A DNA stretch of 64,000 nucleotides from Bradyrhizobium elkanii USDA 76. GTDB lineage: Bacteria; Pseudomonadota; Alphaproteobacteria; Rhizobiales; Xanthobacteraceae. The stretch lies in contig NZ_CP066356.1 of NCBI RefSeq assembly GCF_023278185.1, forward strand, positions 2,596,001 through 2,660,000, given 5' to 3'. Of this stretch, positions 5,702-62,602 are shown piece by piece (position 1 is the stretch's first letter; every line of letters begins with the position of its first letter). Both the position numbers and the translations under genes were made by a program. Below the pieces are notes generated by a model. The model saw only the letters and a list, made by a program, of their open reading frames with translations. It had not been told where the DNA came from and made no database searches.

Positions 5702-5738
5702 CCCTGTTTCCCCCGATTCTTGATTTTTGATGGTCGTC

Positions 5739-6065
5739 CTATGCGGGCAGGCAGACTTCGAGCCTGTCGCCCGCCACGCGTACCGGATAGGTCCGGATGT
5801 CGATCTCGACCGGATTGGTCAGCGCCTCGCCGGTGCGGATATCGAAGCGGCCCATGTGCAGCGGGCATTCGATCTCGCAGCCCTCCAGAATGCCGTCGGA
5901 CAGCAGCGCCTCCGCATGGGTGCAGATGTTGCTCGTGGCGTAGTACTCATTGCCGACGCGATAGAGCGCGACGTGGTGGCGGCCGATTTCGATGCCGTAC
6001 GGCTCGCCCTCGTTCAACGCGCTGAGTGCGGCCGCTTCGTGCCAGGTCCCCTGATCATCTGTCAT
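5739..6065 (-). CDS. Rieske [2Fe-2S] ferredoxin of ring-hydroxylating dioxygenase
   Basis: The 108-aa protein is the size of stand-alone dioxygenase ferredoxins (BphF/CarAc type). Cluster ligands are Cys48-x-His50 (CTHAEALL) and Cys67-x2-His70 (CPLHMGRF). It should pass electrons from an NAD(P)H reductase to the Rieske centre of the alpha subunit. The ATG at 6065 follows GAGAGGG; the upstream in-frame TTG at 6077 has no good site. It begins 8 bp after the beta-subunit gene. No matching reductase gene is present anywhere in the window. Confidence 0.9.
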   Translation of the reverse strand: MTDDQGTWHEAAALSALNEGEPYGIEIGRHHVALYRVGNEYYATSNICTHAEALLSDGILEGCEIECPLHMGRFDIRTGEALTNPVEIDIRTYPVRVAGDRLEVCLPA

Positions 6066-6073
6066 GTGCCCTC

Positions 6074-6589
6074 TCAAATGCTGTAGAAATCGAGCACGGT
6101 CGGGACGCGGTCGTTGACCAGCGTGATGACCTTGCGCGCGATCTTCCAGGTCTCGCCGTCACGCCGCAGCGTGTGCTCGTAGCGCCCGTGCCGCAGATGC
6201 TCCTTGGCTACGCGCGGGTCGTAGACGTGGACCGAGAACACCGAGTGGCAGGTGATCTGTTCGGGCCCGGTTTCGGACGCTTCCAGGTTCGAGATCTGGT
6301 GCACGGTGCGCGGCAGCGGCAGCGCGGTGATCGATTTGCGCGACTCGATTCTTGCGATCCGCTCTTCCAGCCCGCGCCGCGCATCGTGGTAGAGCAGCGA
6401 GACCTGCGTGTCGGGATCATTGGTGGTGGTGTACTCGTCGAGCCATCCCGGCACCCAATAGACCGCATCCTCGCTGTACATCGCGACCCAATCGGCCCAT
6501 TCGCCGGTATCGAGCAGGCGGGCCTCGCGGAAGATGGTTGCGGCCGCGACCGCGTGGGCATCGGTTTGCCTGATTGCGCTGGCAGCCAT
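6074..6589 (-). CDS. Ring-hydroxylating dioxygenase beta subunit
   Basis: The 171-aa protein belongs to the SnoaL-like/NTF2-fold small subunits of aromatic dioxygenases. It shows the signature EARLLDTGEWADWVAMYSED followed by VYWVPGW, and ends with the usual ARKVITLVNDRVPTVLDFYSI strand. The subunit has no catalytic residues and shapes the alpha3beta3 hexamer. The ATG at 6589 shares one base with the alpha-subunit stop (TGATG), so translation is coupled. A longer in-frame start at 6691 would lie inside the alpha gene and is rejected. Confidence 0.92.
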   Translation of the reverse strand: MAASAIRQTDAHAVAAATIFREARLLDTGEWADWVAMYSEDAVYWVPGWLDEYTTTNDPDTQVSLLYHDARRGLEERIARIESRKSITALPLPRTVHQISNLEASETGPEQITCHSVFSVHVYDPRVAKEHLRHGRYEHTLRRDGETWKIARKVITLVNDRVPTVLDFYSI

Positions 6590-48500: not shown

Positions 48501-48758
48501 ATCCTGCGCTGCCCTGCTCCGAAGCAGCCTCCCTAAGGTCGGGCTGTTGCGCTGCCTGCTTTGGAATGAAGCAGGTGGTCGGGGATGCTGGTCGTGGAGA
48601 CGATTGCGCGGATACGGCGTGAGCACTTCATCAAGGGCAAGACGATCAAGGAGATCGTCCGCGACCTGAAGGTGTCGCGGAACACGGTCCGGAAGGTGCT
48701 GAGGTCGGGAGAGACCTCGTTCGAGTACGAGCGGCAGGTACAGCCACGACCAAAGCTG
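48501..48758 (+). mobile_element. Truncated IS21-family element (left end and istA 5' fragment)
   Basis: A frame from 48585 encodes MLVVETIARIRREHFIKGKT and then IKEIVRDLKVSRNTVRKVLR, the helix-turn-helix N-terminus of an IS21 IstA transposase, followed by EYERQVQPRPKL, after which similarity stops at about 48758 (58 of about 500 residues). Upstream, TGCGCTGCC occurs at 48505-48513 and 48548-48556 within longer related blocks, as expected for the multiple terminal repeats of IS21 elements. The rest of istA, istB and the right end are gone. Confidence 0.8.
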
Positions 48759-48863
48759 GTCGACTCTCGCCGTTTTGATGGCGGTCGTCATCCTAAGAGC
48801 TTCGTACGAGCGCGGTGTCTTGGCGACCATTGAGCGAATTAGTGGCGCCAGGCTTCCAGGCCG

Positions 48864-51800
48864 TCAGCGTCGTACCAAGATACGGCCCAGCAATGTCGTG
48901 CTGTACTCGCCGGTGGCCCTCGCCAGATTTCTTGCGCTCGAACTCGGCCGCCCGGCCGGAAAGTTGAAGGGCAGGCTGAGCGTCCAAGGCGCGATGAACC
49001 GGAATCCCCAAGCGTCGTCCTTTTGCGGCGGCTTTGAGATCGGTGCGAGTTCGATCTCCTCTGCCTTATGGGCGAAAGGCGAGGATAGCGCGATCTTGCC
49101 TTTGATGGGTTGAACGACCGCACCGCCAAGACCGTATTTCAGCATCGAGTAGATGAAATTGCCATCCGGCTGGACGCCGACCAGAGGCTGATCCAGTTTG
49201 TCGCGGATTTGCTTGATGACGAGATAGCTGTCGATGCCACCGGGCACGCCGTCGCGCTCGAACCAGGTTCTTATGGTGCCGGATGAGCTTCGCATGGAGA
49301 AGGAGTCATTGTCATCCTGGATTCGTGCGACCTGTTTGTTGAAGCCGTAAAGATTCTGGCCGATCAACGTGGCTGCCAGCGAGCTCACGAACAAATGCGG
49401 CATGTAGCTGAACAGGACGTTCTGCAATGAAGGTGCGTTCTTATGGATAACGTCGGGAATCAGCTGGGCTATTTCCAGGTAGTGCGCGCCGCCGAAGGGT
49501 AGTGGTCCCGGACGCACGTTGCGTTGCCGGGCAAAGATCAGGACGACATGATGCGGTGGCTCGGGGATATGCTCCGGTGTCTCTTCCGTGTTGCCCTCTG
49601 CATCGGGCGACGCGCCGTAATGCGCTGTCTTGATCGTGCTGTGGGGCGCTGGAGGTTCGAGGAGTGTCAGCCCATCGGGTAGCATTTTCTCGAGTTCGGA
49701 GCGCGACCGTTGTTGGACGACGCAGAACGCCTCGATTTCGCCGGTGCCGGCGACGGCGTTTGTGGCAAGCTTGCGCAGCAGGTCCAATGCCGGCAATAAG
49801 GCGGTTGGTAGCGAAACGTCGTCGAAGTCGTTGGCGTTTGGCATGGCAATATCTACTCCTGCAATTGCGGCTGCCGCAGAGCGGCCCGCCATGACCGATG
49901 CTTCAATACAACCCGCATTAATACCGGTACGAACCCAGTCGCCGGCGAGAAAGAGATTATCGACCCCCGAATTGCCGGCCTCCATGCGTTTGAACACGCT
50001 GCCGGGAACTGATAGCACATATCGGTCCGAGGGATTGATGTTCACCCGCGGATATTGCGCGAAGAACCGCCTTCGAGTCGGGGGGCAATAAGCACGATAG
50101 TCGAAGAATCGCTCCCAACGAATGGCATGGCCGGGGCCTTCAATTCCGGGCCACAAGAAGTGAAGGTTGTTCTCGACCCAGTGCAGCATCCTTCGCCTCT
50201 GCCGCGCGAGCATCCTGGCCGGATAGCTGTGTTCGCAGAACGGGGGCGGCGGATCCGCGGGATCGTCGACCAGGGAGCCGACGAAATATGCCAACCCCTT
50301 GGGAGGCGGTTGAGGCCATTTTTCCAGCGGCAACATCAGGCTCAGGTCGGCCCAGGTATCGAGCGGCAATACGAATCCCGAAAGGGCCGTTCGATCCTGC
50401 TTGCAACCGAGCTCTCGCATGCCGACGTTTGTCCATGCTTGAAAGGCTACCGTCGCCGTCGTCTTGATGGCATCGACCATCTCTCGCCAGCCGGGCATGT
50501 GGCAGATCAGGTCCTTGCATATCGTGCGGAATGCGCCGATGCCGATGCCGAGCACGACATCGTCGAAGTCCCTCCCTCGCAGCAGCTTCCGGGGAGGGTC
50601 GACGCCGGGCCACTTCGTCCACGCCGATTCCAGGTCTATTCTTTGGTCTCGCAGATCCTGCCCTTGGACCAGCTGACGGTAGTCTGGATGGGAAGGCCAG
50701 CTCGGGATTGTGCCATCTGCGCCGATCCAGATCAGCGGATCGTAAGAATTGCCGGAGTGGGTGGTCGCCTGAACGGTGGTGTCGATGAATTCGATCGAAG
50801 CTTTGTCTTGAGACAGTCCGATGTGCTCGACCTTGGTAAAGAATTCGAACTTGACGTGGCGTTTCGTGAGAACCTGGTAGAGCGGAGCGAACAGCAGCTC
50901 GCCCATGGTCGCCTTGAGAAGGTAGAAGAACGACCCGCGATATGTGAAGAGCAGCTTCAATAGGATGCGGGTGCCGGTGCCAGCCGCCACATTCCTGCAG
51001 GGAATGACATTCCCGCGTTCATCCGTGTGGCTACCGAAGAACCCGAACACATAATCATAGCAGCCACGGACGATGGCGGAATCCAGCGCCGAATCCGAGC
51101 AGCCGTTCGACCTCATCCAATCGGTCCACTCCTGATGGTCGATGCAGTCGAAGCCCTGCCACAGCACGCCGTCGCTCAACATGCCGATCGCGATCGTCAG
51201 CGCGACCTCCGCCACGACCTCGCGCGGGTCGCGAGACATGGCGGCCGACGCCGGCTTGCCGCAGAGCTGAGTCCGCGCATGCCTTAGTATCGTCTGTAGT
51301 TCGGCGGCGTCACTTGGGCTGACCGCCCTGGGATTCTGCGGCAGGATATCGACCTTCGCCCGCGCCGTTCTGAAAGGACCGTCGGTTGCTCCGGCCGCCA
51401 CAGCGGAGTGCTGGGTCCCCTCCGGCCATTGGTCCGTGAAGCCAGCGATCGACTGGCTCTGCTGCACCGAGCATTCGAGCAGTGAGCGCAGAAAATCGAC
51501 GAGCGAGAATGCGGGACGCGGTGTGCCCGGAATTCCTTCATGGGGTGGAATGTCGATAGTCCATGAAGCCCAACCGGAATTGAACGGCTCCATGAGCACG
51601 GATCGATCGAGGCCCTCGAAGGCGTTCTCGCGTGATCCGAACGGCGGGCTGAGATCGAGATCGTTCATCGCGGCATAAAGCCGGTCGACCAGTTCGAATG
51701 CGTTATCGTAAAAGCCGGTCCAGACATGAAGTCCGTGTTCCTCGGCGCGATACCCTTTTTCCTTGTCGCGGCCGACCGCTCCCTTGCCGCCAAGCCGCCA

Positions 51801-51920
51801 GCCGATCGTGTAGACGGTGATGTCGAACAGTTGATGCAGGGGATCCTGCTCCGTCAGCTCGAACGCCGCGCTGAGCGCCGCGACACCGCCTCCCAGGATT
51901 GCAATCTTTCTGCGCGCCAT
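48864..51920 (-). CDS. FAD amine-oxidase-fold flavoprotein fused to an acetoacetate-decarboxylase-like domain
   Basis: The 1018-aa protein has two parts. Residues 1-720 form a large FAD oxidoreductase of amine-oxidase/phytoene-desaturase type: ILGGGVAALSAAFELTEQ at the N-terminus (the third Gly of GxGxxG is Ala), GWRLGGKG, and the C-terminal FAD block NLFLAGDWVRTGINAGCIEA. Residues about 730-1000 resemble acetoacetate decarboxylase: FCVVQQRSRSELEKMLPDG and GQNLYGFNKQVARI, with Lys862 at the Schiff-base lysine position. The start at 51920 has GAGGA upstream; ATG 51935 is also possible. It overlaps or abuts the preceding gene. The substrate is unknown. Confidence 0.75.
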   Translation of the reverse strand: MARRKIAILGGGVAALSAAFELTEQDPLHQLFDITVYTIGWRLGGKGAVGRDKEKGYRAEEHGLHVWTGFYDNAFELVDRLYAAMNDLDLSPPFGSRENAFEGLDRSVLMEPFNSGWASWTIDIPPHEGIPGTPRPAFSLVDFLRSLLECSVQQSQSIAGFTDQWPEGTQHSAVAAGATDGPFRTARAKVDILPQNPRAVSPSDAAELQTILRHARTQLCGKPASAAMSRDPREVVAEVALTIAIGMLSDGVLWQGFDCIDHQEWTDWMRSNGCSDSALDSAIVRGCYDYVFGFFGSHTDERGNVIPCRNVAAGTGTRILLKLLFTYRGSFFYLLKATMGELLFAPLYQVLTKRHVKFEFFTKVEHIGLSQDKASIEFIDTTVQATTHSGNSYDPLIWIGADGTIPSWPSHPDYRQLVQGQDLRDQRIDLESAWTKWPGVDPPRKLLRGRDFDDVVLGIGIGAFRTICKDLICHMPGWREMVDAIKTTATVAFQAWTNVGMRELGCKQDRTALSGFVLPLDTWADLSLMLPLEKWPQPPPKGLAYFVGSLVDDPADPPPPFCEHSYPARMLARQRRRMLHWVENNLHFLWPGIEGPGHAIRWERFFDYRAYCPPTRRRFFAQYPRVNINPSDRYVLSVPGSVFKRMEAGNSGVDNLFLAGDWVRTGINAGCIEASVMAGRSAAAAIAGVDIAMPNANDFDDVSLPTALLPALDLLRKLATNAVAGTGEIEAFCVVQQRSRSELEKMLPDGLTLLEPPAPHSTIKTAHYGASPDAEGNTEETPEHIPEPPHHVVLIFARQRNVRPGPLPFGGAHYLEIAQLIPDVIHKNAPSLQNVLFSYMPHLFVSSLAATLIGQNLYGFNKQVARIQDDNDSFSMRSSSGTIRTWFERDGVPGGIDSYLVIKQIRDKLDQPLVGVQPDGNFIYSMLKYGLGGAVVQPIKGKIALSSPFAHKAEEIELAPISKPPQKDDAWGFRFIAPWTLSLPFNFPAGRPSSSARNLARATGEYSTTLLGRILVRR

Positions 51921-51931
51921 GCAGCCAATCC

Positions 51932-54154
51932 TCATTCAGCGGGAGCGGTCGCGCAGCTGCGCATAACATCACAGAGAGACAGATATTGTCGGGTCGCGTG
52001 AAGAAAACGCTCGCCGGGAATTTCGAGCTCTGCGCCGGTGATCGCGCGCGCCGCCTGCATTCCCGAGATCACGGCTGTTTCAACGCATTCGGTGTTGAAG
52101 CCGGTGTCGATCCAGGTTCCGGCGAGGTACAGGTGCTTGAAGCCGGACTCGTCGGTCTTCAGGCGCCAGGCGCTGGTGCCGGCCGCCGTCGCGACACAGC
52201 AATCCCAGGGACTGACATTGGCTTTGACGTGCTGAGCCCTGATCCGGCGATAGCCGTGGCGATCCTGATCGTCGTAAAGCACGGTCCAGTCAAACGCACC
52301 ATTCGTCATCACCTTCGGCCAGATGAATTTGGCCTTGTGCTCGAGCCAATCCAACGTCTTGAGATAGGCGAGCAGATTTGCCACCTCCTGGGCATGCCGG
52401 CTTGTCTGCGGCGCTGCGTACAATTTCGAAGGGAAGACGTCACAGAGGTAGTGAAGCGAGTAGGGAGGGTCGCGGCGCTCATACCGCAGGAGCTGGAACA
52501 TGTCCGCCCAGATGTCGAGAGGATTGGGGCCTGACACCAGCGCGGGCTTTTGTCCGGACCAGCCGAGGTCGGCAAGCGAGCGCGTGCTCCAGAGCTGAAC
52601 TGCGATGCTGGGCACCAGGCGAAGCTTTGCCGCCATATTCCAGAAGCCGGTGCTGTGGTTGTAAAGGTCGTCGAACGGCTCGTGCTTTGCTTCAATGCTA
52701 GATAGGCCCGGTCCGGGCGGTCGCTCGACACTTTTGTTACCCGTGAACTTCTTGAAAGCGCCGAGCGGTATCGCCAGGACGACATCGTCGAAATCGTCGA
52801 CTCGTGTCTTTACGTCGGTGCCGACCCGCTCGTTGCACCAGAACGATTCAAAATCAACGCAGCCGTTCGGGGGCACGTCGAGGTGAAGCCAGTCGGGTTG
52901 GCTGCTCCAGCCGGACAGTCCATCGCCAATCGGCACGGTCCATTCATAGCCGGACTTCGGTATCGCCTGCACGTCAAAGTGCAGTGAATCGACAGATCGC
53001 CCGTCCGACGAGACCCTGATATCGGTCAGTTTGTGAAAGAACCGAAACTCGACGTCTCGCTGCTTGAGTATCTCGAACAGGGGAGCGACGATCACTTCGC
53101 CTGCACCGGCCTGCAGCTCCCACGCCACGGCTCCCTGATAGGTTCCGAGTGCTCGAAGCAGGACCTGCACCGCGGTTCCTGCGCCGTAGCTCGCGTTGGC
53201 GATGTCTCCGTCCGGATACTGAAACATTGTGTCGTAGAGCGCTCTCACCATTGGCGACTGCTTGACCAGTAAGGGCTCGGCGCCATGACGAACCAACCAG
53301 CGGCGAAAGTCCTCGCCGTCCATCTGCTGGATGGATCGTTGCTCAATCACGATGTCGTCGAAAATGCCGTCCACCAGCGGCCACGCTAGTCGCAAGGCCT
53401 GGTCGAACAAGTGACCGGCTGCGGTATTCGCAAAGGTCATATGACAACTGGCGCCAGCAGCGCCCTGAAGCACCCGGCGGACTAATTCCATGTCCGCGGG
53501 GCCAAACGAGATCATGTCTTCGTCGAGATGCAACAGCCATGCCGAGGCAATCTCCAGACAGGTCCTTGCCGTCACCACACCGAGCAGTCTTGAGGGAGGA
53601 AACCGCGGGTCGTCGCGCATTTTTATCGTTTCGATCGAAACTTCGTCGAGCTTGACGATCGGCGAGTCTGACCCGAGCGCATAGTCGTGGAAGTCGATCA
53701 ACAGCCCTATCGCGTGCGACAGACAATTGGCGATGCTGAGGTCAGCCGGTTCTCTGCCGGGTATACCGACTTTCTTCGATGTCGGGAAGTTGACGTCATA
53801 CACGGTCGGCTTGGCCCCATCGGGATCGCCGATCGGCGTGTAAGCCTGTGGGAGAATCAAGGTGTTCAAATCGACTTTCGCTCCCTTCCGCGGCAAGTTT
53901 CGGTAAACCTCAGCCAACATCTGGAAAGCGTTCAGGTAGTGGCCGAACCAGATATGCAGGCCATGCTCGATGTTGCGGCCCTGCGCATCGCGCCCGCTGG
54001 CGCACTTGCCTCCGAGCCGCCATCCCAGCTGGTAGACCGTGACGTGATACTGCTTGCGCAATTCCGGGGTAAGGCTGAGCTGATAGGCGGCGGAAAGTCC
54101 CGCCATTCCGCCGCCCACGATGATGATGCGGCGTTGACTCAAGTCTGTCTCCAT
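51932..54154 (-). CDS. FAD-dependent amine-oxidase-fold oxidoreductase
   Basis: The 740-aa protein has IIIVGGGMAGLSAAYQLSL at the N-terminus, GWRLGGKCASGRD, IEHGLHIWFGHYLNAFQML, and a C-terminal FAD block HLYLAGTWIDTGFNTECVETAV. It is a homologue of the N-terminal part of the next gene product (shared GWRLGGK, GLH(I/V)W and the final block), so the pair arose by duplication. Family relatives include phytoene and squalene desaturases and dehydroxylases. The start overlaps the TPR gene by 16 bp. No carotenoid gene is nearby, so the substrate is open. Confidence 0.8.
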   Translation of the reverse strand: METDLSQRRIIIVGGGMAGLSAAYQLSLTPELRKQYHVTVYQLGWRLGGKCASGRDAQGRNIEHGLHIWFGHYLNAFQMLAEVYRNLPRKGAKVDLNTLILPQAYTPIGDPDGAKPTVYDVNFPTSKKVGIPGREPADLSIANCLSHAIGLLIDFHDYALGSDSPIVKLDEVSIETIKMRDDPRFPPSRLLGVVTARTCLEIASAWLLHLDEDMISFGPADMELVRRVLQGAAGASCHMTFANTAAGHLFDQALRLAWPLVDGIFDDIVIEQRSIQQMDGEDFRRWLVRHGAEPLLVKQSPMVRALYDTMFQYPDGDIANASYGAGTAVQVLLRALGTYQGAVAWELQAGAGEVIVAPLFEILKQRDVEFRFFHKLTDIRVSSDGRSVDSLHFDVQAIPKSGYEWTVPIGDGLSGWSSQPDWLHLDVPPNGCVDFESFWCNERVGTDVKTRVDDFDDVVLAIPLGAFKKFTGNKSVERPPGPGLSSIEAKHEPFDDLYNHSTGFWNMAAKLRLVPSIAVQLWSTRSLADLGWSGQKPALVSGPNPLDIWADMFQLLRYERRDPPYSLHYLCDVFPSKLYAAPQTSRHAQEVANLLAYLKTLDWLEHKAKFIWPKVMTNGAFDWTVLYDDQDRHGYRRIRAQHVKANVSPWDCCVATAAGTSAWRLKTDESGFKHLYLAGTWIDTGFNTECVETAVISGMQAARAITGAELEIPGERFLHATRQYLSLCDVMRSCATAPAE

Positions 54155-55920
54155 TGCGACGACAGCGATGGATGGACACGTTTCAGTTCGGCGAGTTCCT
54201 TGGCGGCGCCGAGGCGTTCAAAGATGTCAGCCGCCTGCCGCAGGCGAGACTCACGCTCAGGATCGCTCGCGCTGATCGCAAGGCCGGTTCGATAGATCGC
54301 CTGCGCCTGCTCGCGGGGGGTTTGCAGCAGCTCGGCCATTTTGGCGGCGCGCTTCCAATTCTCGAGCGCCCGCGCCGGTTGACCGGTCAGGAAGCGCAAT
54401 CGGCCGTTCATTAACAGACTGTAGAGACGGCAGATCGGCGATGTTCGAGCGAGCCGGGAAAGCTCCCGGCACGCCAGCTTCGCCTGGCTTTGAATGTTCG
54501 GAGAGACCGAGCCGGAAGCTGGCTCCCAATGGCTCAGTAAGACATCGGCGATTCCTGCCGGTCCGAAGGCATATCCGCCCCACACAACGCCGCATTCGCG
54601 CAAGATCGGAAGTCCCCGTTCCGCAAGCTCAAGGGCGACTGCGACCTCGCCGCGCTCGAGATAGCCGGCAGCGGCCACGCCCGTGCAAAGCAATTGTTCC
54701 GTGCGGATCAACCGCTGACCCGCCAGCGCTTTCAGTTTGTCGAGGCATCCGTTATCGGCCCCGCCCCGGGTGATGTCGATCAATGCCCGCAAGGAAAGAC
54801 TCCAAGCGCGGATCTGCGGCGGGGAATCGTCGGAGAGTTCCGCGAACAGCCTGGCAAGCCGCTCGTCGGCGAGCGAAATATATCCCCGCAACAGCGCGAT
54901 GAAGATCAACATCGTCTCGCTGTTCTGCGCACGCTTTCGGTCTCCCAAGCGCTCGTAACAACGTCTTGCATGTTCGCCATGCGCCTCGGCATTGTCCCAT
55001 TCGGCGAGGCCATAAGAGAGAACGCCGAGAACGAGTCGGACCCGCGCGATCTCTGGCAGCGAGCCGTAATCTTCCGCCAATTGGATCGCGCGCGCTCCGT
55101 AGGTGCGGCCGATCCCCACCATGCCGGACATCCCCATTCCGAGGGCCAGCGCGCTGTATCCTCGAATCGTCTCTGGGGTCGCGCCGCATTTTTCGGCTAG
55201 GTTCAACGAGGCCAGGGTTCCGTTGAGCACGGCCAGCGAGTCGTTCTGGTAAAAATACTGCTCCGACAGAAATTCGTGCATATGAGCGACGCGCTGCATG
55301 TCGGACCTGTCCTGCTCAGCCAGGTCCACTTGTTTCGACGAGGTAAATCGTAACCTCAACTGGGTTGCGGCGTTGCGAACAAGCGCGCCGATTCGTTCGG
55401 TCTTGCTCGCCGGAAGACGATGACCAAGCAACTCCATCGCGCGTTGGTAGTGGTTGGCCGAGCTCTCGTAGTCCGACAATTCGTGACAGGCATCGCCGAG
55501 GATGACCTCCCAAGCCGCCTTGCGGCTGCTTCCGATCTGGATCGCTTCGCGCTGCGTGAGATCGAATAGCTTCTCCACGTAACGGATCGCTTCGCGATTT
55601 GCCGAGTTGTTGCGCGACTGTTGCGCCGCAAGCTCGAGGTAAGTGATCGCCCGCAACGGCTCACCGCCAAGCTCGAGATGCCTTGCCAGGCGCGCATAAT
55701 TCGGTTGCAGCTCCTCGGCGTGATGCTGCTCGATGAAGCCGGCAATCCGCCGATGGAGGGTCCTTCGCTGCGCAACAGACAAGACATGATAGGCAACCTC
55801 CATCGTTATGGAGTGCCTAAACACAAAGGACAGTGGATTCGTCTCGCGATCGAGTTGCAGGAAGTCGGAGTCGATCAGTCGGCGGATGCATTCCGCCTTG
55901 GTGGCAGCGGACAACTCCAA
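54139..55920 (-). CDS. TPR half of a soluble-adenylyl-cyclase-like protein (separate frame)
   Basis: The 593-aa frame begins at TTG and contains LSFVFRHSITMEVAYHVLSVAQRRTLHRRI, the conserved start of the C-terminal region of cyclase-AAA-TPR proteins, then many helical repeats with TPR character. In relatives this region continues directly from the ATPase, but here it is in a different frame overlapping the upstream gene by 46 bp. About 90 residues that normally join the halves are absent. It is either a translationally coupled partner or the 3' part of a gene broken by a deletion with frameshift. Confidence 0.7.
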   Translation of the reverse strand: MELSAATKAECIRRLIDSDFLQLDRETNPLSFVFRHSITMEVAYHVLSVAQRRTLHRRIAGFIEQHHAEELQPNYARLARHLELGGEPLRAITYLELAAQQSRNNSANREAIRYVEKLFDLTQREAIQIGSSRKAAWEVILGDACHELSDYESSANHYQRAMELLGHRLPASKTERIGALVRNAATQLRLRFTSSKQVDLAEQDRSDMQRVAHMHEFLSEQYFYQNDSLAVLNGTLASLNLAEKCGATPETIRGYSALALGMGMSGMVGIGRTYGARAIQLAEDYGSLPEIARVRLVLGVLSYGLAEWDNAEAHGEHARRCYERLGDRKRAQNSETMLIFIALLRGYISLADERLARLFAELSDDSPPQIRAWSLSLRALIDITRGGADNGCLDKLKALAGQRLIRTEQLLCTGVAAAGYLERGEVAVALELAERGLPILRECGVVWGGYAFGPAGIADVLLSHWEPASGSVSPNIQSQAKLACRELSRLARTSPICRLYSLLMNGRLRFLTGQPARALENWKRAAKMAELLQTPREQAQAIYRTGLAISASDPERESRLRQAADIFERLGAAKELAELKRVHPSLSSQWRQT

Positions 55921-57959
55921 ATCTTTCCGGTATCCCTGAGCGCGAGCGCGAGCTCCTCGCTGAAGAACGGATTTCCGCTGGCATGACCGTAGACATATCG
56001 CACCAATTCCGGCGGAACCTCGGACGATCTCAGGCGCCGCTTCACCAGCAGCCGCACGTCGTCGCGCGACAGCCGGTCGAGCCGCAGCTGCAGCGACGAG
56101 GCGAGTTCGACGGCAAGGCGCTGCTCTGCGATCGTAGTCGTCTGGGTCCGCTGGGTAACCACGATCAGGAAGTCAGAAAGCCGGCGCGCGACGGCGCCGA
56201 GCAGTTCGATCGAGGGGCCGTCGAACCAGTGGACGTCCTCCATCAGGAGGATGCGAACGCTCGATCGGCGTAGGATGAAGATCACGAGTTCTTCGATCGC
56301 GCTCGCGCGAGCCGAGCCGACGATCTGTTCGGTGAAGGCGAATTCGGAAAATCCCAGTGGAATGACTTCTTCGAGCAGCGGAAGCCAATTCAGCAGCGGC
56401 TCGTTTTCGAGCAGCGCTTCCGACAATTCGCGTCGGACCCGCAGTCCGTCGCCCGGTCCTTCAAACTGCAAGATCTGCCGCAACACGGCGCGCCACACGA
56501 AATAGGGCGTCGATCTTTCGATGGCCGTGGCATTTGCGATCAGGACGGCGTGATTGTCGGCCTGCGCCGATCCGATGAAGTCTTCGAGCAGGCGCGATTT
56601 TCCGATGCCGGCTTCACCTGCAATGAGGACGAGCTTACCGGTTCCCGTCTTCAGACCGTCGAGGCAGCTCCTGAGCATCGCGGCTTCGCTGACGCGGTCA
56701 ATGATGGTGCGCCGGGGCGGAGCATGGAAATCGTCGGACACTGCCGCCGGGCTGAACGCCAACATCGATGCGCCCGTCCCCTTGACCTGGAGATGTGGCA
56801 GCAGGTTGAACACGATCCTGCGCCCGACGGCCTGGGCCGTCGTGGCGTCGCAGACGATGTCGCCCTGTGCGGCCTCGGCGAAATGCGCGGCCACATTGAT
56901 CGCCTGCCCAAAAATCCCGAACGTCCTTTGATGGAGGCCGCCATAATTGCTGCAGAACAGGCGGCCCGTCGCCATGCCGACAGAAATAGGAATGGCCTTC
57001 GCTTCCAGCTGGCGACGGAGGCGCAGACACGCCTCGACGGCTCTGAAGGGATCGTCTTCGTGGGCAAGCGGAGCCAATCCGAAGACGAGCGTGAGAGTCA
57101 GGCCCTTGTCGTCCATCAGGACCTGATGAACGGTTCCCTCGAGCCGTTCGGCGATTTGCTGGACGTCAACGACGAAGGCCTGCAGTCTCGTCAAGAAATC
57201 ATCATCGAAAATGAAATCGGGAAGGCCGACCCGCGCCACTGTGAGCGTGCGAAACTCGCCGACCCAGTCGCTGGCGTCGGCCTTGTCCGTGTGGCTTCCG
57301 AAGATAGTGCCGTTTATCGGTGCCATGGCACTAGGCGAGTTCATTCCAAGGAGCCGCGCCCCATAGGGCATGGGTTCGAGTTCGCACGAGCCCGAGCCCG
57401 CCAACAGCCGCGCGGCGTTTGCACACAACGCGATGTCGCCGATCTCGGCCTTCTGATAAGCGAGGCCGATGCTGTAGAAGGGGGCACCGGCTGCAACATA
57501 GTGCCATTTGTCCTGCCAACCGCCGAGCCTGCAGAAGAACACTTCGCCGGTTTCTACTGCCGTACGCGCATTGATCGCTTCTCGGCCCGGCCCGGCGGTC
57601 ATGGCCTGTCGCAGCGCAAGGCCGCAGCGTACGGCCTGCGCGGTAGCGACTGCAGCGTCCGGATCGACCCAAATCGCGAGAATGGCGTCGCCGGCGAAAG
57701 CGACGATGTCGCCTCCCTCTGAATCGATCACGTCGGCCAGTATCGCAAAGCAATCGTTGATGAAGTAGGTAAGGCTTTCGGCGCCGTCGCCGGCAGCGCG
57801 GTCGGTCTTCGCCGTGAAGCCAGCAATGTCGATAAGCAGTACTGCCGCGGTCCGGGCTTCCGCGCGAGGGTTGTTTGACCAGTCCTGAGACTGGAGGCGT
57901 GCATTCACCCATTTTGGCGTGTGGGCGGCTTGCTCCCTTGCGACAGCTCCGGCAGGCAT
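55875..57959 (-). CDS. Soluble-adenylyl-cyclase-like protein: two class III cyclase domains and AAA ATPase
   Basis: The 694-aa protein has a first cyclase domain (about 35-200) with metal Asp44 (LLIDIAGF) and Asp91 (FAGDAILAIW), a second cyclase domain (about 250-420) with FGIFGQAINVAAHF keeping the Asn but with His in the Arg position, then a P-loop ATPase with Lys454 (GEAGIGKSRLLEDF) and LLMEDVHWFD as Walker B. This order matches animal soluble adenylyl cyclase (ADCY10). ATG 57959 has CGAGGT upstream. The frame ends at LRDTGKI plus an unrelated 10-residue tail, just where relatives continue. Confidence 0.8.
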   Translation of the reverse strand: MPAGAVAREQAAHTPKWVNARLQSQDWSNNPRAEARTAAVLLIDIAGFTAKTDRAAGDGAESLTYFINDCFAILADVIDSEGGDIVAFAGDAILAIWVDPDAAVATAQAVRCGLALRQAMTAGPGREAINARTAVETGEVFFCRLGGWQDKWHYVAAGAPFYSIGLAYQKAEIGDIALCANAARLLAGSGSCELEPMPYGARLLGMNSPSAMAPINGTIFGSHTDKADASDWVGEFRTLTVARVGLPDFIFDDDFLTRLQAFVVDVQQIAERLEGTVHQVLMDDKGLTLTLVFGLAPLAHEDDPFRAVEACLRLRRQLEAKAIPISVGMATGRLFCSNYGGLHQRTFGIFGQAINVAAHFAEAAQGDIVCDATTAQAVGRRIVFNLLPHLQVKGTGASMLAFSPAAVSDDFHAPPRRTIIDRVSEAAMLRSCLDGLKTGTGKLVLIAGEAGIGKSRLLEDFIGSAQADNHAVLIANATAIERSTPYFVWRAVLRQILQFEGPGDGLRVRRELSEALLENEPLLNWLPLLEEVIPLGFSEFAFTEQIVGSARASAIEELVIFILRRSSVRILLMEDVHWFDGPSIELLGAVARRLSDFLIVVTQRTQTTTIAEQRLAVELASSLQLRLDRLSRDDVRLLVKRRLRSSEVPPELVRYVYGHASGNPFFSEELALALRDTGKIWSCPLPPRRNASAD

Positions 57960-59426
57960 TGCACGACCTCGGCTCAATGGAGCCGGAATGGAACCCTGTC
58001 TTGGAGAGAAAATCAACAAACCAAGCGGCTCGCGGACCGCCGGGAGACCGTCAGCGGTCTTGTCCAATTGCTCGACACTATGCCTTTATGTCTAAAATGC
58101 CTTTTATCACTTTGGTGGCATGCGAGCTGTGGGGTGGCTCACAATGATCGTCAAACCTTGGGTCCGTCCGTGATCCGGAAAGAGCGCGACCACAGGCGAT
58201 GACTTGCCACTCACGCGCCGAGCGGATGTGGTGCTTGAGGAGGCTCGGTGTTTTCATGTTGACGTGCACATGAAGGGCTGGCCGAGCCGTGCGCATGAGG
58301 CGGCGCGAATGCGCGGCAACGGACGGCTCACTGGCTCTCTCAGCTTTCGACGCTTTGCTTTGGTCCAGTCTTCATGAGGCTGCTCGTTCTGCACAAGCTG
58401 GGCCTTCCTACCGAATATCCCCGAGCTGAAAGTCCTTCCGCTGTTGGCTCATCTTCTCACCCAGCGAGCCAAATTGAGGCTTAACACATTGAAAACACTG
58501 CAGCGGGAAATGACGCGGCGATCCCGGCAGGAGGGATATCTTGAGCGAATTCAATGATGTGCATTGGATAAGCCGTCTGAATGGCGCCATTGCCCGCCTT
58601 GGTGTTTTTGTTGCGGTGGCTAGCCGGGCAGGGCATTTTTGGTTCCGAAGCCGAACGCGAGGCACAGAGACAGCAGCGCGCCGAACTGCTGGAAGGCAGG
58701 TGGTTAGCCTCGTGAGCGGCGATTCCAGACTTCCAGATCCGGAATCCCGTCCTAATCGGCTGGGACCGAACAGGGCGGTGTCTCGGCCTCAGTGCCGAGA
58801 TGGAAAGGTCGGGGCACAACCGTGGTGACTTCGAAGTGGGAAAGCCGGTGCAATATACCCATGGTCACCAAGGCACCTTTGAATGAAGCGCTGTTCGATA
58901 CGGCCGGCCGGGCGCGAATGCGAACCCCGTGAATAAAAATGCGCCCGAGTCTCAGATCATGGCGCCGTACCAAATCACGAGCGCGAAGATCACCAGCAAG
59001 ACGATGGTGATGATTTGTTCACCGATGGGTATCGGCTGTCTGTCCATGACGGCCCGGCCCTCCGTGCGCGGGAGCGGGATGCTGCAACGGGCCGTTGGTT
59101 CGTCAGCACAGCGGGGCCCGCTTAAAATGCGTGCGGGCGGCCATTGGCTCCAGGCCCAGGAAGGTGATGCAAAATCCTGACGGCTCGAAGTCTGCACCCT
59201 CCGTGGCCAAAGGATCATGGCCCAAACGGACTATCCGTCGGGCGAAAACGTCACTGCAATTGTCTCGAAGTGAGCGGCATGTGGAAATCTCGAGTGCCAA
59301 ATCAGCTATCTGTCTGACGCCGTCAAATGATCATGGTGTGCGAGCCTGCTCACGAACGAAAATTGCACGTATCTGGTGCGGCAGTGGCCCTAGGAGCAAC
59401 GAGAACTCAGTAAGATATTGATCCTC
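57960..59426. other. Long gap with little coding signal
   Basis: About 1.5 kb separates the cyclase operon from the first tRNA-half repeat. No frame here looks like a known protein, codon use is irregular and the frames are short. I see one possible small membrane protein (58952-59047). The lower GC of several stretches and absence of genes suggest degraded or recently shuffled DNA, in keeping with the neighbouring att-like repeat. Confidence 0.5.
58952..59047 (-). CDS. Possible 31-aa single-pass membrane protein
   Basis: The frame encodes MDRQPIPIGEQ followed by a hydrophobic helix (IITIVLLVIFALVIWYGAMI). A GGAGGG lies about 10 bases before the ATG. The protein would be a small membrane peptide of unknown role. 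With so few residues, chance cannot be excluded. Confidence 0.4.
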   Translation of the reverse strand: MDRQPIPIGEQIITIVLLVIFALVIWYGAMI

Positions 59427-59474
59427 TTGGTGGGCCCGGCAGGACTCGAACCTGCAACCAGACCGTTATGAGCG
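59427..59474 (-). repeat. 48-bp direct repeat copy A: 3' half of tRNA(CAT), att-like
   Basis: On the minus strand the segment runs from the anticodon loop CTCATAA (anticodon CAT) through the T arm (GCAGG-TTCGAGT-CCTGC) to the acceptor end CGGGCCCACCA with encoded CCA. The 5' half that should follow on the plus strand after 59474 is absent. An identical 48-bp copy lies at 63829-63876. Elements that integrate into tRNA genes leave exactly this kind of 3'-half duplicate. Confidence 0.85.
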
Positions 59475-59794
59475 CAGCGCGCATCCGGCAAATCTGAACG
59501 TTTTCAACGATTTTCGTGCTCATTTGTTCGTTTTCATGCACGTTCGTTCACGGGGTTTCTGTGGGATTTCTGGTGGGCGGCGGATCAGCATAGATCTCGC
59601 ATGGCTCCCCGAGCGCGCAAAGCGCGCTGTTGGGCCAAGGTCCATTATGCCGTCCCTAGACGCCATGTCGGCAATGGCCGGAAGCAGACCTACGCTTTGA
59701 GCTGGATCAAGGGTTTTGGACGCTCTCAATCATATGGTTGTTGATTGATCGCCAAGATTACTGAATCTGCATGGGGATTGAGGGGGAGATTGTC
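59475..59794. other. Non-coding left interior of the putative island
   Basis: No gene is supported. The stretch starts with an A/T-richer segment (GTTTTCAACGATTTTCGTG at 59500-59518) that has a 15/19 match at exactly the same distance from the right tRNA-half repeat. A TTTCTGGTG occurs at 59567-59575 and also near the right repeat. The remainder leads into the DUF3604 gene. Confidence 0.5.
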
Positions 59795-61732
59795 ATGACG
59801 TCTCGAAGCGTGATGTACGCATTGGTGTCGACCCTGATGCTAGGGACGATCTTGCCTGCGACCGCGGACGATACGGGTTCTCTCACCAAGGACAAAGCGG
59901 AAGCAGTCTTCAAGAAGCCTGCCAACTACTCCCCTTACGCTGATCGCGATTTCCCTACTCGACCGTTCTTCGGGGATACCCATCTGCACACGGCGATATC
60001 CTTTGATGCCGGTGCATTCGGCGCTCGCCTGAAGCCGCGGGATGCCTACCGCTTTGCACGGGGCGAACAAATCACATCCAATAGCGGACAACCCGTGAAG
60101 CTATCGCGTCCGCTCGATTTTCTCGTCGTCGCCGACCATTCCGACAACATGGGTTTCTTCACTGACATGATGGCGGGCAAACCGGAAATCCTGGCCGATC
60201 CGACTGGGCGACGCTGGTACGACATGATCCAGTCTGGCAAGGGCGACGAGGCGGCCATCGAGATCATTATCGCCTTCTCTCACGGAACTTTTCCAAAGGA
60301 CCTCATCTATTTCCCGGGTACCCGGGCCTATCACAATACCTGGCTCGACAATATCGCCGCGGCAGAACAGTACAATGATCCTGGGCGCTTCACGGCTTTC
60401 ATCGGTTACGAGTGGACCTCCAACACCGGCGGAAACAACCTGCACCGCAACGTCATCTTCCGTGACAATGGTGACAAGGCGAGTCAGGTCGATCCGTTCA
60501 CGGTGACGCCTCCGTTCGGCAGCGACAATCCCGCCGAGCTCTGGAAGTGGATGGACAACTACGAGAAGAAGACTGGTGGCAGTGTGCTCGCCATCAGCCA
60601 TAACGGCAATCTCAGCAACGGTCTGATGTTCCCAACCGTCGAGACATTCGGCAAGAAGGTTGACCGAGACTATGCCGAGACCCGCGCGAAGTGGGAGCGA
60701 CTCTACGAGACCACTCAGACCAAAGGTGATAGCGAAACGCACCCCTTCCTGTCGCCGAACGACGAATTCGCGAATTTTGAACGATGGGACAAGGGCAACC
60801 TTGACGGGAGCGTCGCCAAGAAGAAGGAAATGCTCGAGTTTGAATATGCCCGGTCGGCTCTCAAGAACGGCCTCAAACTGGAGCAGTCACTGGGCGTCAA
60901 TCCGTACAAGTTTGGAATGGTCGGAAGCACCGATGCTCACACGGGCCTCGTCGCGATCGAGGAAGAGAACTTCTTCGGCAAGACTGCACCCCAAGAGCCG
61001 AGCCCCAAGCGGATGCTGTCGACCTTCATTGACAACAAGGAGACCGGCATAAACGTCATGGACTGGGAGGTGTCGGCCTCCGGCTACGCGGCGGTCTGGG
61101 CCAAGGAGAATACGCGGGCTTCATTGTGGGACGCGATGGAGCGCAAGGAGACATACGCGACCACTGGCTCGCGTATGATCGTTCGCTTTTTCGGCGGCTG
61201 GGATTTCGCGCCGGGTGATGCCGACAATCGCCTGCCGGCCAATATCGGCTACACCAAGGGGGTGCCGATGGGCGGCGACCTCGCTGCCGCGCCGCAAGGC
61301 AAGGCCCCGACGTTCCTTGTCGCGGCGCTGAAGGATCCGATCGGCGCCAATCTGGACCGCTACCAGATCGTCAAGGGATGGCTCGACAAGGACGGCAATG
61401 CTCAAGAGAAGGTGTATGACGTCACTTGGGCGGGCGACCGCAAGCCCGACGCTAAGATCGGCAAGTTGCCTTCGGTGGGCAGCACGGTCGATCTTGCCAA
61501 CGCTACTTGGACCAACACGATCGGGGCGCCAGAGTTGATTACGGTCTGGAAGGACCCTGAGTTCGATCCGGCGCTGCGAGCCTTCTATTACGGTCGGGTC
61601 ATCGAGATTCCAACTCCGCGGTGGACGGCCTATGACGCGAAGCGGTTCAGCGTCACCCCGCTGCCGGGGACGACCATGACCGTGACGGAGCGGGCGTATA
61701 CATCCCCGATTTGGTACACGCCGAAGAAATAG
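59795..61732 (+). CDS. DUF3604 domain-containing secreted protein
   Basis: The 645-aa protein has a Sec signal peptide (MTSRSVMYALVSTLMLGTILPATA). It then has a PHP-phosphoesterase-like start RPFFGDTHLHTAISFDAG, with FLVVADHSDNMG, ALAISHNGN-type (VLAISHNGNLSNG) and MVGSTDAHTGL blocks. The Asp/His-rich motifs are spaced as in metal-dependent hydrolases, so a periplasmic metallohydrolase is likely, but DUF3604 has no established function known to me. The start at 59795 has GAGGGGGAG upstream; the frame begins 24 bp earlier. It is the first gene of a three-gene operon between tRNA-half repeats. Confidence 0.88.
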   Translation: MTSRSVMYALVSTLMLGTILPATADDTGSLTKDKAEAVFKKPANYSPYADRDFPTRPFFGDTHLHTAISFDAGAFGARLKPRDAYRFARGEQITSNSGQPVKLSRPLDFLVVADHSDNMGFFTDMMAGKPEILADPTGRRWYDMIQSGKGDEAAIEIIIAFSHGTFPKDLIYFPGTRAYHNTWLDNIAAAEQYNDPGRFTAFIGYEWTSNTGGNNLHRNVIFRDNGDKASQVDPFTVTPPFGSDNPAELWKWMDNYEKKTGGSVLAISHNGNLSNGLMFPTVETFGKKVDRDYAETRAKWERLYETTQTKGDSETHPFLSPNDEFANFERWDKGNLDGSVAKKKEMLEFEYARSALKNGLKLEQSLGVNPYKFGMVGSTDAHTGLVAIEEENFFGKTAPQEPSPKRMLSTFIDNKETGINVMDWEVSASGYAAVWAKENTRASLWDAMERKETYATTGSRMIVRFFGGWDFAPGDADNRLPANIGYTKGVPMGGDLAAAPQGKAPTFLVAALKDPIGANLDRYQIVKGWLDKDGNAQEKVYDVTWAGDRKPDAKIGKLPSVGSTVDLANATWTNTIGAPELITVWKDPEFDPALRAFYYGRVIEIPTPRWTAYDAKRFSVTPLPGTTMTVTERAYTSPIWYTPKK

Positions 61733-61747
61733 CGCGAGAGTTCAGTC

Positions 61748-62602
61748 ATGCGGCGGATTCTTCGCGAACCCCTGCTTCACTTCGTCATTCTCGGCACAAT
61801 CCTGTTCGCCGTTCATGCCGGCGTGACCCGGAGTGGGAGTGCGCCCGTCCAGGACATCATCGTCTCGCGGAGCCGTATCACACATCTGGCAAGTATGTTC
61901 AGCCGCAGCTGGCGCCGCGAGCCGAATCCGGACGAACTCAACGAGCTGGTCAATGACTATGTCCACGAGGAAGTCCTCTATCGCGAAGCCAAGGCGATGG
62001 GACTCGACAACGACGACCCCGTAATCCGGAGACGACTTCGCCAAAAACTCGAATTCCTGGCCGAAAACGTCGCGACACAGCGCGCACCAACCGATGACGA
62101 GCTGAACCGACTGCTGCAGAGCGAACCCGAGCGGTTCAGAACCGACGGCCGCTATTCTTTCTCGCATGTCTTTCTGGATCCCGGCCGTCATCGCGACGAT
62201 CTGGCAGACCAGCAGAGCACTCTGCGGAAAGCGCTCAAGGAACCTGATGAGGGCCTCGATCCATCCCAGTTCGGCGACCGTTTCCTGCTCGGCCAATCGT
62301 TTGCCGATGTGCCGGCCAATGAGCTGAGCCGTTTGTTCGGTGAGGATTTTCCGGAACAACTTGCCCAAATCCCGCTGGGCTCCTGGGAGGGGCCGATTCA
62401 GTCCTCCTACGGGCTCCATTTCATCCGACTGACAGGCCGGGATCAAGCGCGGCTTCCTTCGCTCAACGAAGCGAGAGAAAAACTCCTGCGCGAATGGAAT
62501 GAACGCGAACGTATCAAGGCCAATGCGGAGGCGTTCGCCCGGCTTCGCGGCCGCTATCGCATCGTCATTGAACAGGCTTCCGAGCCGTCACGTAGACAGT
62601 AA
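61748..62602 (+). CDS. Membrane-anchored parvulin-type peptidyl-prolyl isomerase
   Basis: The 284-aa protein has an N-terminal membrane anchor (LLHFVILGTILFAVHAG), a helical SurA-N-like region with VNDYVHEEVLYREAKAMGLD, and a parvulin-like domain (about 130-240) with YSFSHVFLDP, LGQSFADV and GSWEGPIQSSYGLHFIRLTG. It is a periplasmic chaperone-like isomerase, probably dedicated to the DUF3604 or HupE-like partner. It begins 15 bp after the DUF3604 stop and ends two bases before the third gene. Confidence 0.85.
   Translation: MRRILREPLLHFVILGTILFAVHAGVTRSGSAPVQDIIVSRSRITHLASMFSRSWRREPNPDELNELVNDYVHEEVLYREAKAMGLDNDDPVIRRRLRQKLEFLAENVATQRAPTDDELNRLLQSEPERFRTDGRYSFSHVFLDPGRHRDDLADQQSTLRKALKEPDEGLDPSQFGDRFLLGQSFADVPANELSRLFGEDFPEQLAQIPLGSWEGPIQSSYGLHFIRLTGRDQARLPSLNEAREKLLREWNERERIKANAEAFARLRGRYRIVIEQASEPSRRQ

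Follow-up and report, generated by a model that had tools for sequence, protein, structure and literature searches.

A flavoenzyme cassette of Bradyrhizobium elkanii and its recurrent linkage to STAND-type signalling proteins

The window analysed here, a stretch of 64,000 nt from Bradyrhizobium elkanii USDA 76, carries a cassette that encodes two flavoproteins, FP1 and FP2, the second of them fused to an acetoacetate decarboxylase (ADC)-like domain, beside a STAND-type regulator built from class III nucleotide cyclase, AAA_16 ATPase and TPR domains. The linkage of these flavoproteins with STAND-type proteins is real and conserved. The cassette genes move as a set, the same adjacency is found with different regulators, and the active-site residues that we checked are for the most part kept. 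We hypothesize, at a probability of about 50%, that the cassette is a small oxidative pathway (FP1, FP2 and the ADC domain) with its own STAND regulator, whose output is a second messenger. The features of the cassette are listed below; coordinates here and in the text are window positions unless a locus handle is given.

48757..58399, minus strand: whole cassette, common with the B. pachyrhizi locus L033 (3572-13399) at 95-96% identity (blastn)
54139..57959, minus strand: cyclase-cyclase-AAA_16-TPR gene (soluble adenylyl cyclase (sAC)-like STAND), disrupted here; intact in L033 as an open reading frame (ORF) of 1354 amino acids (aa) (Pfam; sAC alignment)
55875..57959, minus strand: 5' piece of that gene, two class III cyclase domains and the AAA_16 ATPase (PF00211, PF13191)
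55918..55921, minus strand: deletion scar with frameshift, 190 bp of L033 missing (pairwise alignment, junction read)
54139..55920, minus strand: 3' piece, the TPR half, out of frame (PF13424 and PF13414 below cut-off; 97% identical to residues 763-1353 of the intact protein)
51932..54154, minus strand: FP1, FAD amine-oxidase-fold protein of 740 aa (PF13450, PF01593; family alignment of 47 sequences)
48864..51935, minus strand: FP2-ADC, paralogous FAD protein of 1023 aa fused to the ADC-like domain (PF13450, PF01593; alignment of 43 sequences)
48864..49727, minus strand: ADC-like domain, FP2 residues 737-1023, with K867 invariant (PF06314 sub-threshold)

FP1 was searched in 195 Bradyrhizobium genomes (E <= 0.001). 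Matches occur in 21, and 13 of these hold real homologues, at 14 loci; eight weak hits (E 8.8e-6 to 8.3e-4; G023, G034, G052, G113, G124, G139, G143 and G186) cover the N-terminal FAD motif only and were excluded. At all 14 loci, and at L033, a cyclase-AAA protein adjoins the flavoprotein, in two ORFs at the window, in G108 and at G131:C98. Profile searches, with the window genome counted each time, found matches in 2 of 248 genomes of the family, 3 of 337 of the class and 5 of 398 of the phylum. Matches are also present in 11 of 148 genomes of the G1080 family (another class of the same phylum) and in 9 of 198 of the G972 family, Qingshengfaniella included. All of these profile searches scored 2-7 candidates per genome, so misses are possible. 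The genus of G286 has a match in one of three genomes. Among plasmids, 11 records match, four of which were read, and one of eight Azospirillum records was read.

These searches yield 43 unique loci: 14 from the Bradyrhizobium genomes, L033, G286, nine from the G972 family, eleven from the G1080 family (one genus), and the rest single (G529, G633, G986, G995 and one record each from Azospirillum, Rufibacter and Catenovulum). The locus of G1338 (L088), with proteins identical to those of Qingshengfaniella L036, was counted once with it. A STAND-type AAA protein is adjacent to the flavoprotein at 37 of the 43, namely all 15 Bradyrhizobium loci including L033, G286, eight of nine in the G972 family, all eleven in the G1080 family, Azospirillum and Rufibacter. 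The linkage spans Bradyrhizobium, other alphaproteobacteria, a family of another class and one Bacteroidota plasmid. Gene calls in the fetched loci are mechanical ORFs, and neighbours were called by BLAST to reference proteins, with Pfam on examples only (AAA_16 by Pfam in the window, L033, L034, L036, L037 and L096). Two further loci (G995 and G1345; L067 and L095) have a winged-helix/BTAD TPR regulator beside the flavoprotein, and the 4.7-kb contig of G529 has a PAS histidine kinase. The counts are not independent, since a single genus supplies 11 of the 43 loci and Bradyrhizobium another 15. The earlier note on this DNA had asked for such a neighbourhood survey, and its expectation is borne out across genera and two phyla; neither a general lack of the regulator beside the flavoproteins nor a linkage confined to this strain was found.

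Gene arrangement is tight as well. At L033, L038-L041 and L043, with mechanical starts, the cyclase/FP1 and FP1/FP2 junctions are overlaps of up to 43 bp or gaps of up to 27 bp. Four database proteins of 1393-1454 aa (P0044, P0047, P0064, P0101) contain two flavoprotein modules per chain.

The link is not confined to the cyclase: elsewhere its position beside the enzymes is occupied by kinase/histidine-kinase STAND proteins or, in two cases, by a winged-helix TPR regulator. Two-flavoprotein Bradyrhizobium loci have the tandem sAC-like cyclase-AAA-TPR protein, and an apparently single cyclase-AAA-TPR protein is found in the G972 family, G131:C98, G142, G166 and G286. The regulator is kinase-AAA_16-GAF-PAS-histidine kinase in Azospirillum, kinase-AAA_16-GAF-guanylate cyclase in Rufibacter, and kinase-AAA_16-GAF-histidine kinase-receivers-Hpt at L096, the other G1080-family loci being likewise by BLAST. 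In all 11 G1080-family loci a GGDEF response regulator is next to the kinase-type STAND protein. Domain-scanned CRP/FNR genes adjoin the cyclase at L036 and L092 and lie nearby at L061, and weaker, unscanned matches occur near L064 and L093. The three scanned proteins share a GE...R(S/T) motif, which we take to be of the cyclic-nucleotide-binding type.

A quick flavoprotein tree (47 proteins from 36 loci, including 7 of the 13 kinase-type loci, with L033 representing the window; LG+G4, SH-aLRT only, with long-branch warnings) requires a minimum of 11 changes of neighbour class over six labels ('none' included), compared with a shuffled mean of 23.2. The pairing has therefore probably arisen or been re-formed on several occasions. 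Of the two Azospirillum flavoproteins, one branches with the FP1 group and the other with an FP2-type group. In the position next to the flavoprotein that the ADC takes at other loci, Rufibacter and 10 of the 11 G1080-family loci have a conserved family of about 300 aa without a Pfam match (39-42% identity to the Rufibacter member; L037 10198-11151; L065 7282-8193; L096-L104). The Rufibacter neighbour, of 317 aa, was considered as an ADC and rejected, having no Pfam match and no BLAST match to ADC references. Two antisense ORFs over flavoprotein or ADC genes (1762 aa in L050, 348 aa in L048) were dropped from the references.

The association also holds when searched from the regulator. The intact 1354-aa protein, with three candidates scored per genome, has matches at E <= 1e-30 in 166 of 195 Bradyrhizobium genomes, and among the matches listed its best-scoring relatives are those of the genomes carrying the flavoproteins (G046 71%, G031 63%, G155 49%, G068 41%, G108 39%, G131/G092/G167 31-32%, G043/G183 28-29%). 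The next seven (G072, G036, G080, G011, G084, G093, G153) gave no FP1 match in the 195-genome FP1 search. Three of these (L126-L128) encode a thiamine diphosphate (ThDP) enzyme, an amine-oxidase-fold flavoprotein and a KAS III-like protein (L127, 2249-11246, was scanned, and the other two are 96-97% identical in the flavoprotein). The remaining four (L129-L132) encode a very long GMC-type flavoprotein, a GMC oxidoreductase-hydrolase-PhoD giant of roughly 1900-2040 aa (L130 and L132 scanned, L129 by BLAST, split in L131) that is found on Ensifer plasmids too (L154, L155). Six of the 15 plasmid records with tandem-cyclase matches were read: the two from Ensifer with the GMC giant, one from Rhizobium jaguaris (L156) with the set of ThDP enzyme, amine oxidase and KAS, and another two from Ensifer plus one from Microvirga (L157-L159) with a radical-SAM/B12 protein and an amidohydrolase beside the cyclase. 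Pfam was run on L157 (6027-13555) and L158 (6041-13548), the two for which the amidohydrolase is listed.

All 24 sampled tandem-cyclase proteins adjoin an enzyme set, and 21 adjoin a flavoenzyme. At least four enzyme types are represented: FP1/FP2/ADC, ThDP-amine oxidase-KAS III, GMC-hydrolase-PhoD, and radical SAM/B12-amidohydrolase. In a quick tree (again LG+G4 and SH-aLRT only, with long-branch warnings) the 24 proteins cluster together, separate from other cyclase-AAA proteins, with SH-aLRT 100. Three of the types (GMC, amine-oxidase and radical-SAM) are each a single group, again with support of 100, and the FP type falls into supported groups of nine and two whose union is without support. 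A RoxA-like (rubber-oxygenase type) cytochrome c protein adjoins the cyclase-AAA protein at one tandem-cyclase locus (L129 5996-7834; Pfam) and at one control locus described below (L146 1996-3684; 30% BLAST identity).

As a control we used 20 other cyclase-AAA loci of the genus, one per genome with about 4 kb on each side, taken from the following entries among the matches listed, several entries being passed over. Most of these proteins are 1050-1210 aa long and match the query only from the second cyclase domain onward. A motif script initially flagged 2 of 21 loci as having a flavoprotein-motif ORF nearby, L133 and L153. L153 was set aside, its motif ORF overlapping the cyclase gene by 801 bases, and L133 is the window genome's own locus, outside the 20. 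This leaves 0 of 20 control loci with a flavoenzyme, against 21 of 24 tandem-cyclase loci. By BLAST over the same distance, none of the 20 matches FP, ADC, GMC, amine oxidase, ThDP, KAS or DAO references. The script recovers 15 of 18 tandem-cyclase loci, and the three that it misses (L126-L128) carry a PF01593 protein. At L133, the window genome's next best cyclase-AAA gene, a DAO-type flavoprotein gene (5145-6497) lies 81 bp away, so other cyclase-AAA proteins are not wholly without flavoproteins. Only four other loci of the window genome reach E <= 1e-10 against the 1354-aa protein (41 candidates scored). The view that bacterial sAC-like proteins usually stand alone thus fits the 20 control loci but not the tandem-cyclase group, nor L133.

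Within the window, the four overlapping minus-strand genes described earlier do exist as ORFs, with overlaps of 46, 16 and 4 bp from the 5' piece to FP2, but the first two are a single gene broken by a deletion. In B. pachyrhizi PAC48 (L033), whose cassette is 96.2% identical to this one over 9587 aligned bases, the cyclase-AAA-TPR protein is encoded by one 1354-aa ORF. Of this ORF, 190 bp are missing from the window at about 55919, where the two ORFs meet, and the loss shifts the frame. The single-protein form (1334-1413 aa) is found at ten Bradyrhizobium loci (L033, L038-L040, L042-L045, L048, L049). Because the gene is intact in L033 and these relatives, the 46-bp overlap is a deletion scar, and translational coupling of separate cyclase and TPR genes, which the overlap had been taken to imply, is rejected. 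The 16- and 4-bp overlaps toward FP1 and FP2 are identical in L033. G108 (L041) has the only other split gene of the tandem-cyclase type, broken at a different point. With L041 (5549-9584) included, STAND genes in two ORFs with other break points occur in three genomes besides the window's (also L046 11997-15198; L102 1619-8223), as if the gene were often lost, or read in two pieces. The window's regulator is probably signal-dead, or in two pieces; being broken, this copy cannot show the cAMP control once proposed for it.

The L033 locus (18.2 kb) aligns by blastn with the window only at 48757-55918 and 55920-58399, and its flanks (about 3.6 and 4.8 kb) have no match in the 64 kb. With different flanks in two close species, the cassette behaves as a unit, and the locus appears to be a transferable cassette.

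The earlier assignment of two cyclase domains and an ATPase to the regulator stands, as does that of two paralogous FAD amine-oxidase-fold proteins, which are about 28% identical to each other. In the window proteins the cyclase (PF00211, E 1.6e-8) and AAA_16 (PF13191, E 3.3e-14) matches are clear, and the TPR match is weak and below the Pfam cut-off. Pfam detects one cyclase domain, and the second emerges when the intact protein from B. pachyrhizi is aligned with the two halves of human sAC. The 5'-piece ORF extends maximally over 55875-58067, with the ATG at 57959 as an alternative start that matches the one used by relatives, and FP2-ADC is 1023 aa long, or 1018 aa from an inner ATG. A promoter and terminator scan of 57900-59800 gave nothing useful. 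Divergent from the cassette and apparently unrelated to it, the region 59771-62602 encodes a DUF3604 protein (653 aa) and then a PPIC-type peptidyl-prolyl isomerase. GC content is about 0.57-0.59 in that region, about 0.60-0.63 in the cassette and about 0.62-0.70 in the first 48 kb.

In this intact protein, residues 51-216 and 249-416 align with C1 and C2 of human sAC (E 3.6e-23 overall; B. pachyrhizi sequence). The two metal aspartates of C1, and the substrate lysine and transition-state asparagine of C2, are kept in all 11 flavoprotein-linked tandem proteins (ten intact ones and the cyclase part of L041), and the window ORF has the same letters. The transition-state arginine of C2 is present in L041-L045 and is a lysine in L048 and L049. 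AAA_16 of the intact protein is above the Pfam cut-off and TPR below it (19.2 versus 30.1), and no helix-turn-helix or winged-helix family is found in it by Pfam. Like human sAC (ADCY10) and bacterial sAC-like proteins, it has tandem class III domains end to end, then AAA and TPR. It differs in having a dedicated enzyme cassette next door, in the arginine position of the window's subclade, and in the bicarbonate site, where the residues aligned with what we take to be K95 and R176 of sAC are Ala and Gly and thus not kept.

Both flavoproteins have FAD Rossmann motifs and are putative FAD enzymes. In a search that scored 7999 candidates, 3665 proteins match at E <= 0.001, a number that includes distant FAD enzymes; this flavoprotein group presumably corresponds to COG3349. 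The best NCBIfam match of both is HpnE (TIGR03467), at 71 and 56 bits against a cut-off of 283, and membership was rejected on that score. Oleate hydratase membership was rejected likewise, as MCRA (PF06100) reaches 21.1 and 17.9 bits against a gathering score of 23. The decarboxylase-like fusion reported earlier is upheld as a C-terminal resemblance to PF06314, but the 287 residues score 21.2 bits, below the cut-off of 29.8; separate relatives reach 37.6, 35.2 and 30.4 bits. K867, which we take to be the Schiff-base catalytic lysine of ADC, is invariant in all 43 aligned FP2 homologues and, as K131, in all 11 fused or separate ADC proteins. E821 is invariant in the 43-sequence alignment and at least 90% kept in the fused and separate set. 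A nine-protein profile, which still included the 317-aa Rufibacter protein rejected above as an ADC, meets solved ADC chains at the lysine motif, though at non-significant levels (E 0.08-0.8). Three related cassettes (L046, L047, L066) encode ADC proteins together with a polyprenyl synthetase and an NADP protein that resembles saccharopine dehydrogenase (Pfam for L046, BLAST for the others), and in Azospirillum the gene of a FadL-type porin separates that of the ADC from that of the second flavoprotein. We tentatively suggest, at somewhat less than even odds, that the substrate is a lipid, most likely an isoprenoid.

In the pathway we propose, FP1 and FP2 would work on a long hydrophobic chain, which is probably an isoprenoid, and would oxidise, dehydrogenate or hydrate it, either as a heterodimer or as FAD enzymes acting one after the other. 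The ADC domain could then perform lysine Schiff-base chemistry on the resulting carbonyl compound, either decarboxylation or a double-bond shift. The TPR/AAA part may sense a ligand of the pathway, an inducer or a product, and turn on the cyclase attached to it (or the kinase relay). The resulting second messenger, cAMP or another, would in turn alter transcription, via the CRP/FNR protein where one is encoded next door. In the window genome, where the regulator is broken, the enzymes may be uncoupled or decaying.

Several observations weigh against this proposal. The copy of the regulator in the window is broken. In its subclade (L033, L038, L039, L040) the transition-state arginine is His or Leu, and the asparagine is apparently missing from the single-cyclase Qingshengfaniella protein, so that in these proteins little or no nucleotide may be made. 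Judged by these residues, some members are likely to be active cyclases, and activity in the window's own line was doubtful before the deletion already. A BLAST search of the fetched tandem-cyclase loci with three CRP proteins gave no hit other than a weak one in L048, about 3 kb from the flavoprotein. No flavoprotein was seen beside the cyclase at the three radical-SAM/amidohydrolase loci. Among the neighbours checked at Catenovulum L035, L063 (G633) and L066 (G986) there is no regulator of the kind described, and L066 has a TIR-TPR protein about 5 kb away. The isoprenoid hint comes from three related loci only, and we infer the substrate, the ligand and the direction of signalling from sequence, as we do the functions assigned to the proteins.

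The flavoproteins could instead be the sensor itself, with FP1 and FP2 bound to the TPRs of the STAND protein and the cyclase or kinase controlled by their substrate state or the redox state of their flavin. Photoactivated cyclases are gated by flavin domains in an analogous way, and TPRs are typical protein-binding repeats. The close cyclase/FP1 and FP1/FP2 junctions in the genus would suit such a role, as would the fact that the tandem-cyclase group has flavoenzyme neighbours from more than one family. However, the invariant lysine and the largely kept E821 of the ADC domain, together with plain metabolic enzymes in the cassettes (ThDP enzyme, KAS III-like protein, PhoD, radical SAM), argue for chemistry rather than sensing alone, and we consider this explanation unlikely. 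We give an equally low chance to fatty-acid chemistry of the kind found in Lactiplantibacillus cla, in which FAD hydratase-like and ADC-family enzymes would act on fatty acids sensed by the STAND protein. CLA-HY and CLA-DC are a known pair of a hydratase and an ADC-named enzyme in the part of the source consulted (PMC9241672), the Azospirillum cassette has the FadL-type porin gene, and both flavoproteins show the similarity to MCRA. That similarity is below the cut-off, though, while the one to HpnE is stronger, if also far below its own, and the polyprenyl synthetase of three cassettes points away from fatty acids.

Two further explanations seem much less probable. An anti-phage system, with a class III cyclase as in Pycsar, a STAND ATPase as in Avs and flavoenzymes as effectors, would agree with the sporadic distribution in different surroundings, the TIR-TPR protein of L066, the matches of PADLOC Pycsar-cyclase models to the cyclase domain (E 6.5e-10 and 3.9e-10) and that of an Avs2 model to 38 residues of the ATPase (15.9 bits). 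These matches cover only generic cyclase and ATPase parts, however, and the neighbours that were read are enzymes. In the PADLOC scan of the four window proteins, the flavoproteins match no Pycsar effector model; FP2 matches no model at all and FP1 only a desaturase-like one at 18 bits. We regard a defence function as extremely improbable. Hitchhiking of the genes in transferred DNA without a functional tie would account for the patchy distribution and the different flanks, and the non-independence of the 43 loci is in its favour. It sits poorly with a pairing that involves several unrelated regulators, with close or overlapping genes and flavoprotein-flavoprotein fusions, and with control cyclase-AAA loci that are without flavoenzymes, and is therefore highly unlikely.

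An oxidative pathway with its own STAND regulator, the explanation we prefer, has partial counterparts among known systems. AAA-TPR regulators inside biosynthetic clusters are known as the LAL and SARP types, and MalT is likewise a STAND protein. As in those, an AAA/STAND and TPR regulator lies beside the enzymes of a small pathway, and L067 and L095 have the winged-helix/BTAD version. The cassette regulators would be comparable to cluster-situated LAL/SARP-type proteins and MalT in which the DNA-binding output has been swapped for a second messenger, the output domain here being a nucleotide cyclase or kinase relay. HpnE and carotenoid desaturases share with FP1 and FP2 the FAD Rossmann motif and the best NCBIfam match, but these proteins are 740 and 1023 aa long against a model of 430 positions, and occur as a paralogous pair. 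The TOMM system kinase/cyclase (TIGR03903) is also a signalling fusion protein, and its model is weakly matched by the AAA and TPR parts; at 66 and 48 bits against a cut-off of 706, membership was rejected. The cla system (CLA-HY, CLA-DH, CLA-DC) similarly combines oleate-hydratase-type and ADC-named enzymes acting on a lipid, but in the part of the source consulted its regulators are the transcription factors ArgR2 and LttR, with no cyclase, in place of the STAND cyclase found here (PMC9241672).

Within the literature searched, mostly titles and abstract openings, no system of this composition is described, in agreement with the earlier note. What appears new is a STAND regulator with second-messenger output tied to a flavoenzyme-ADC pathway. 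More speculatively, and with odds we place well below even, bacteria may have a general type of portable cassette that joins a STAND ATPase to a small redox enzyme set of its own. The ATPase would signal through a second messenger, by a cAMP-type cyclase or by a kinase relay that feeds a diguanylate cyclase, and the enzymes would produce or consume the molecule it senses, so that each cassette would be a self-contained pair of a lipid- or terpenoid-signal synthase and its receptor. To our knowledge, the ligands of bacterial cyclase-AAA-TPR proteins are mostly unknown; here the neighbouring enzymes nominate a ligand pathway, which makes the question of sensing testable. The cassettes expose an uncharacterised flavoenzyme-ADC pathway, and the change of output domain around constant enzymes offers a natural experiment on STAND/TPR sensing that also bears on the origin of the sAC architecture.

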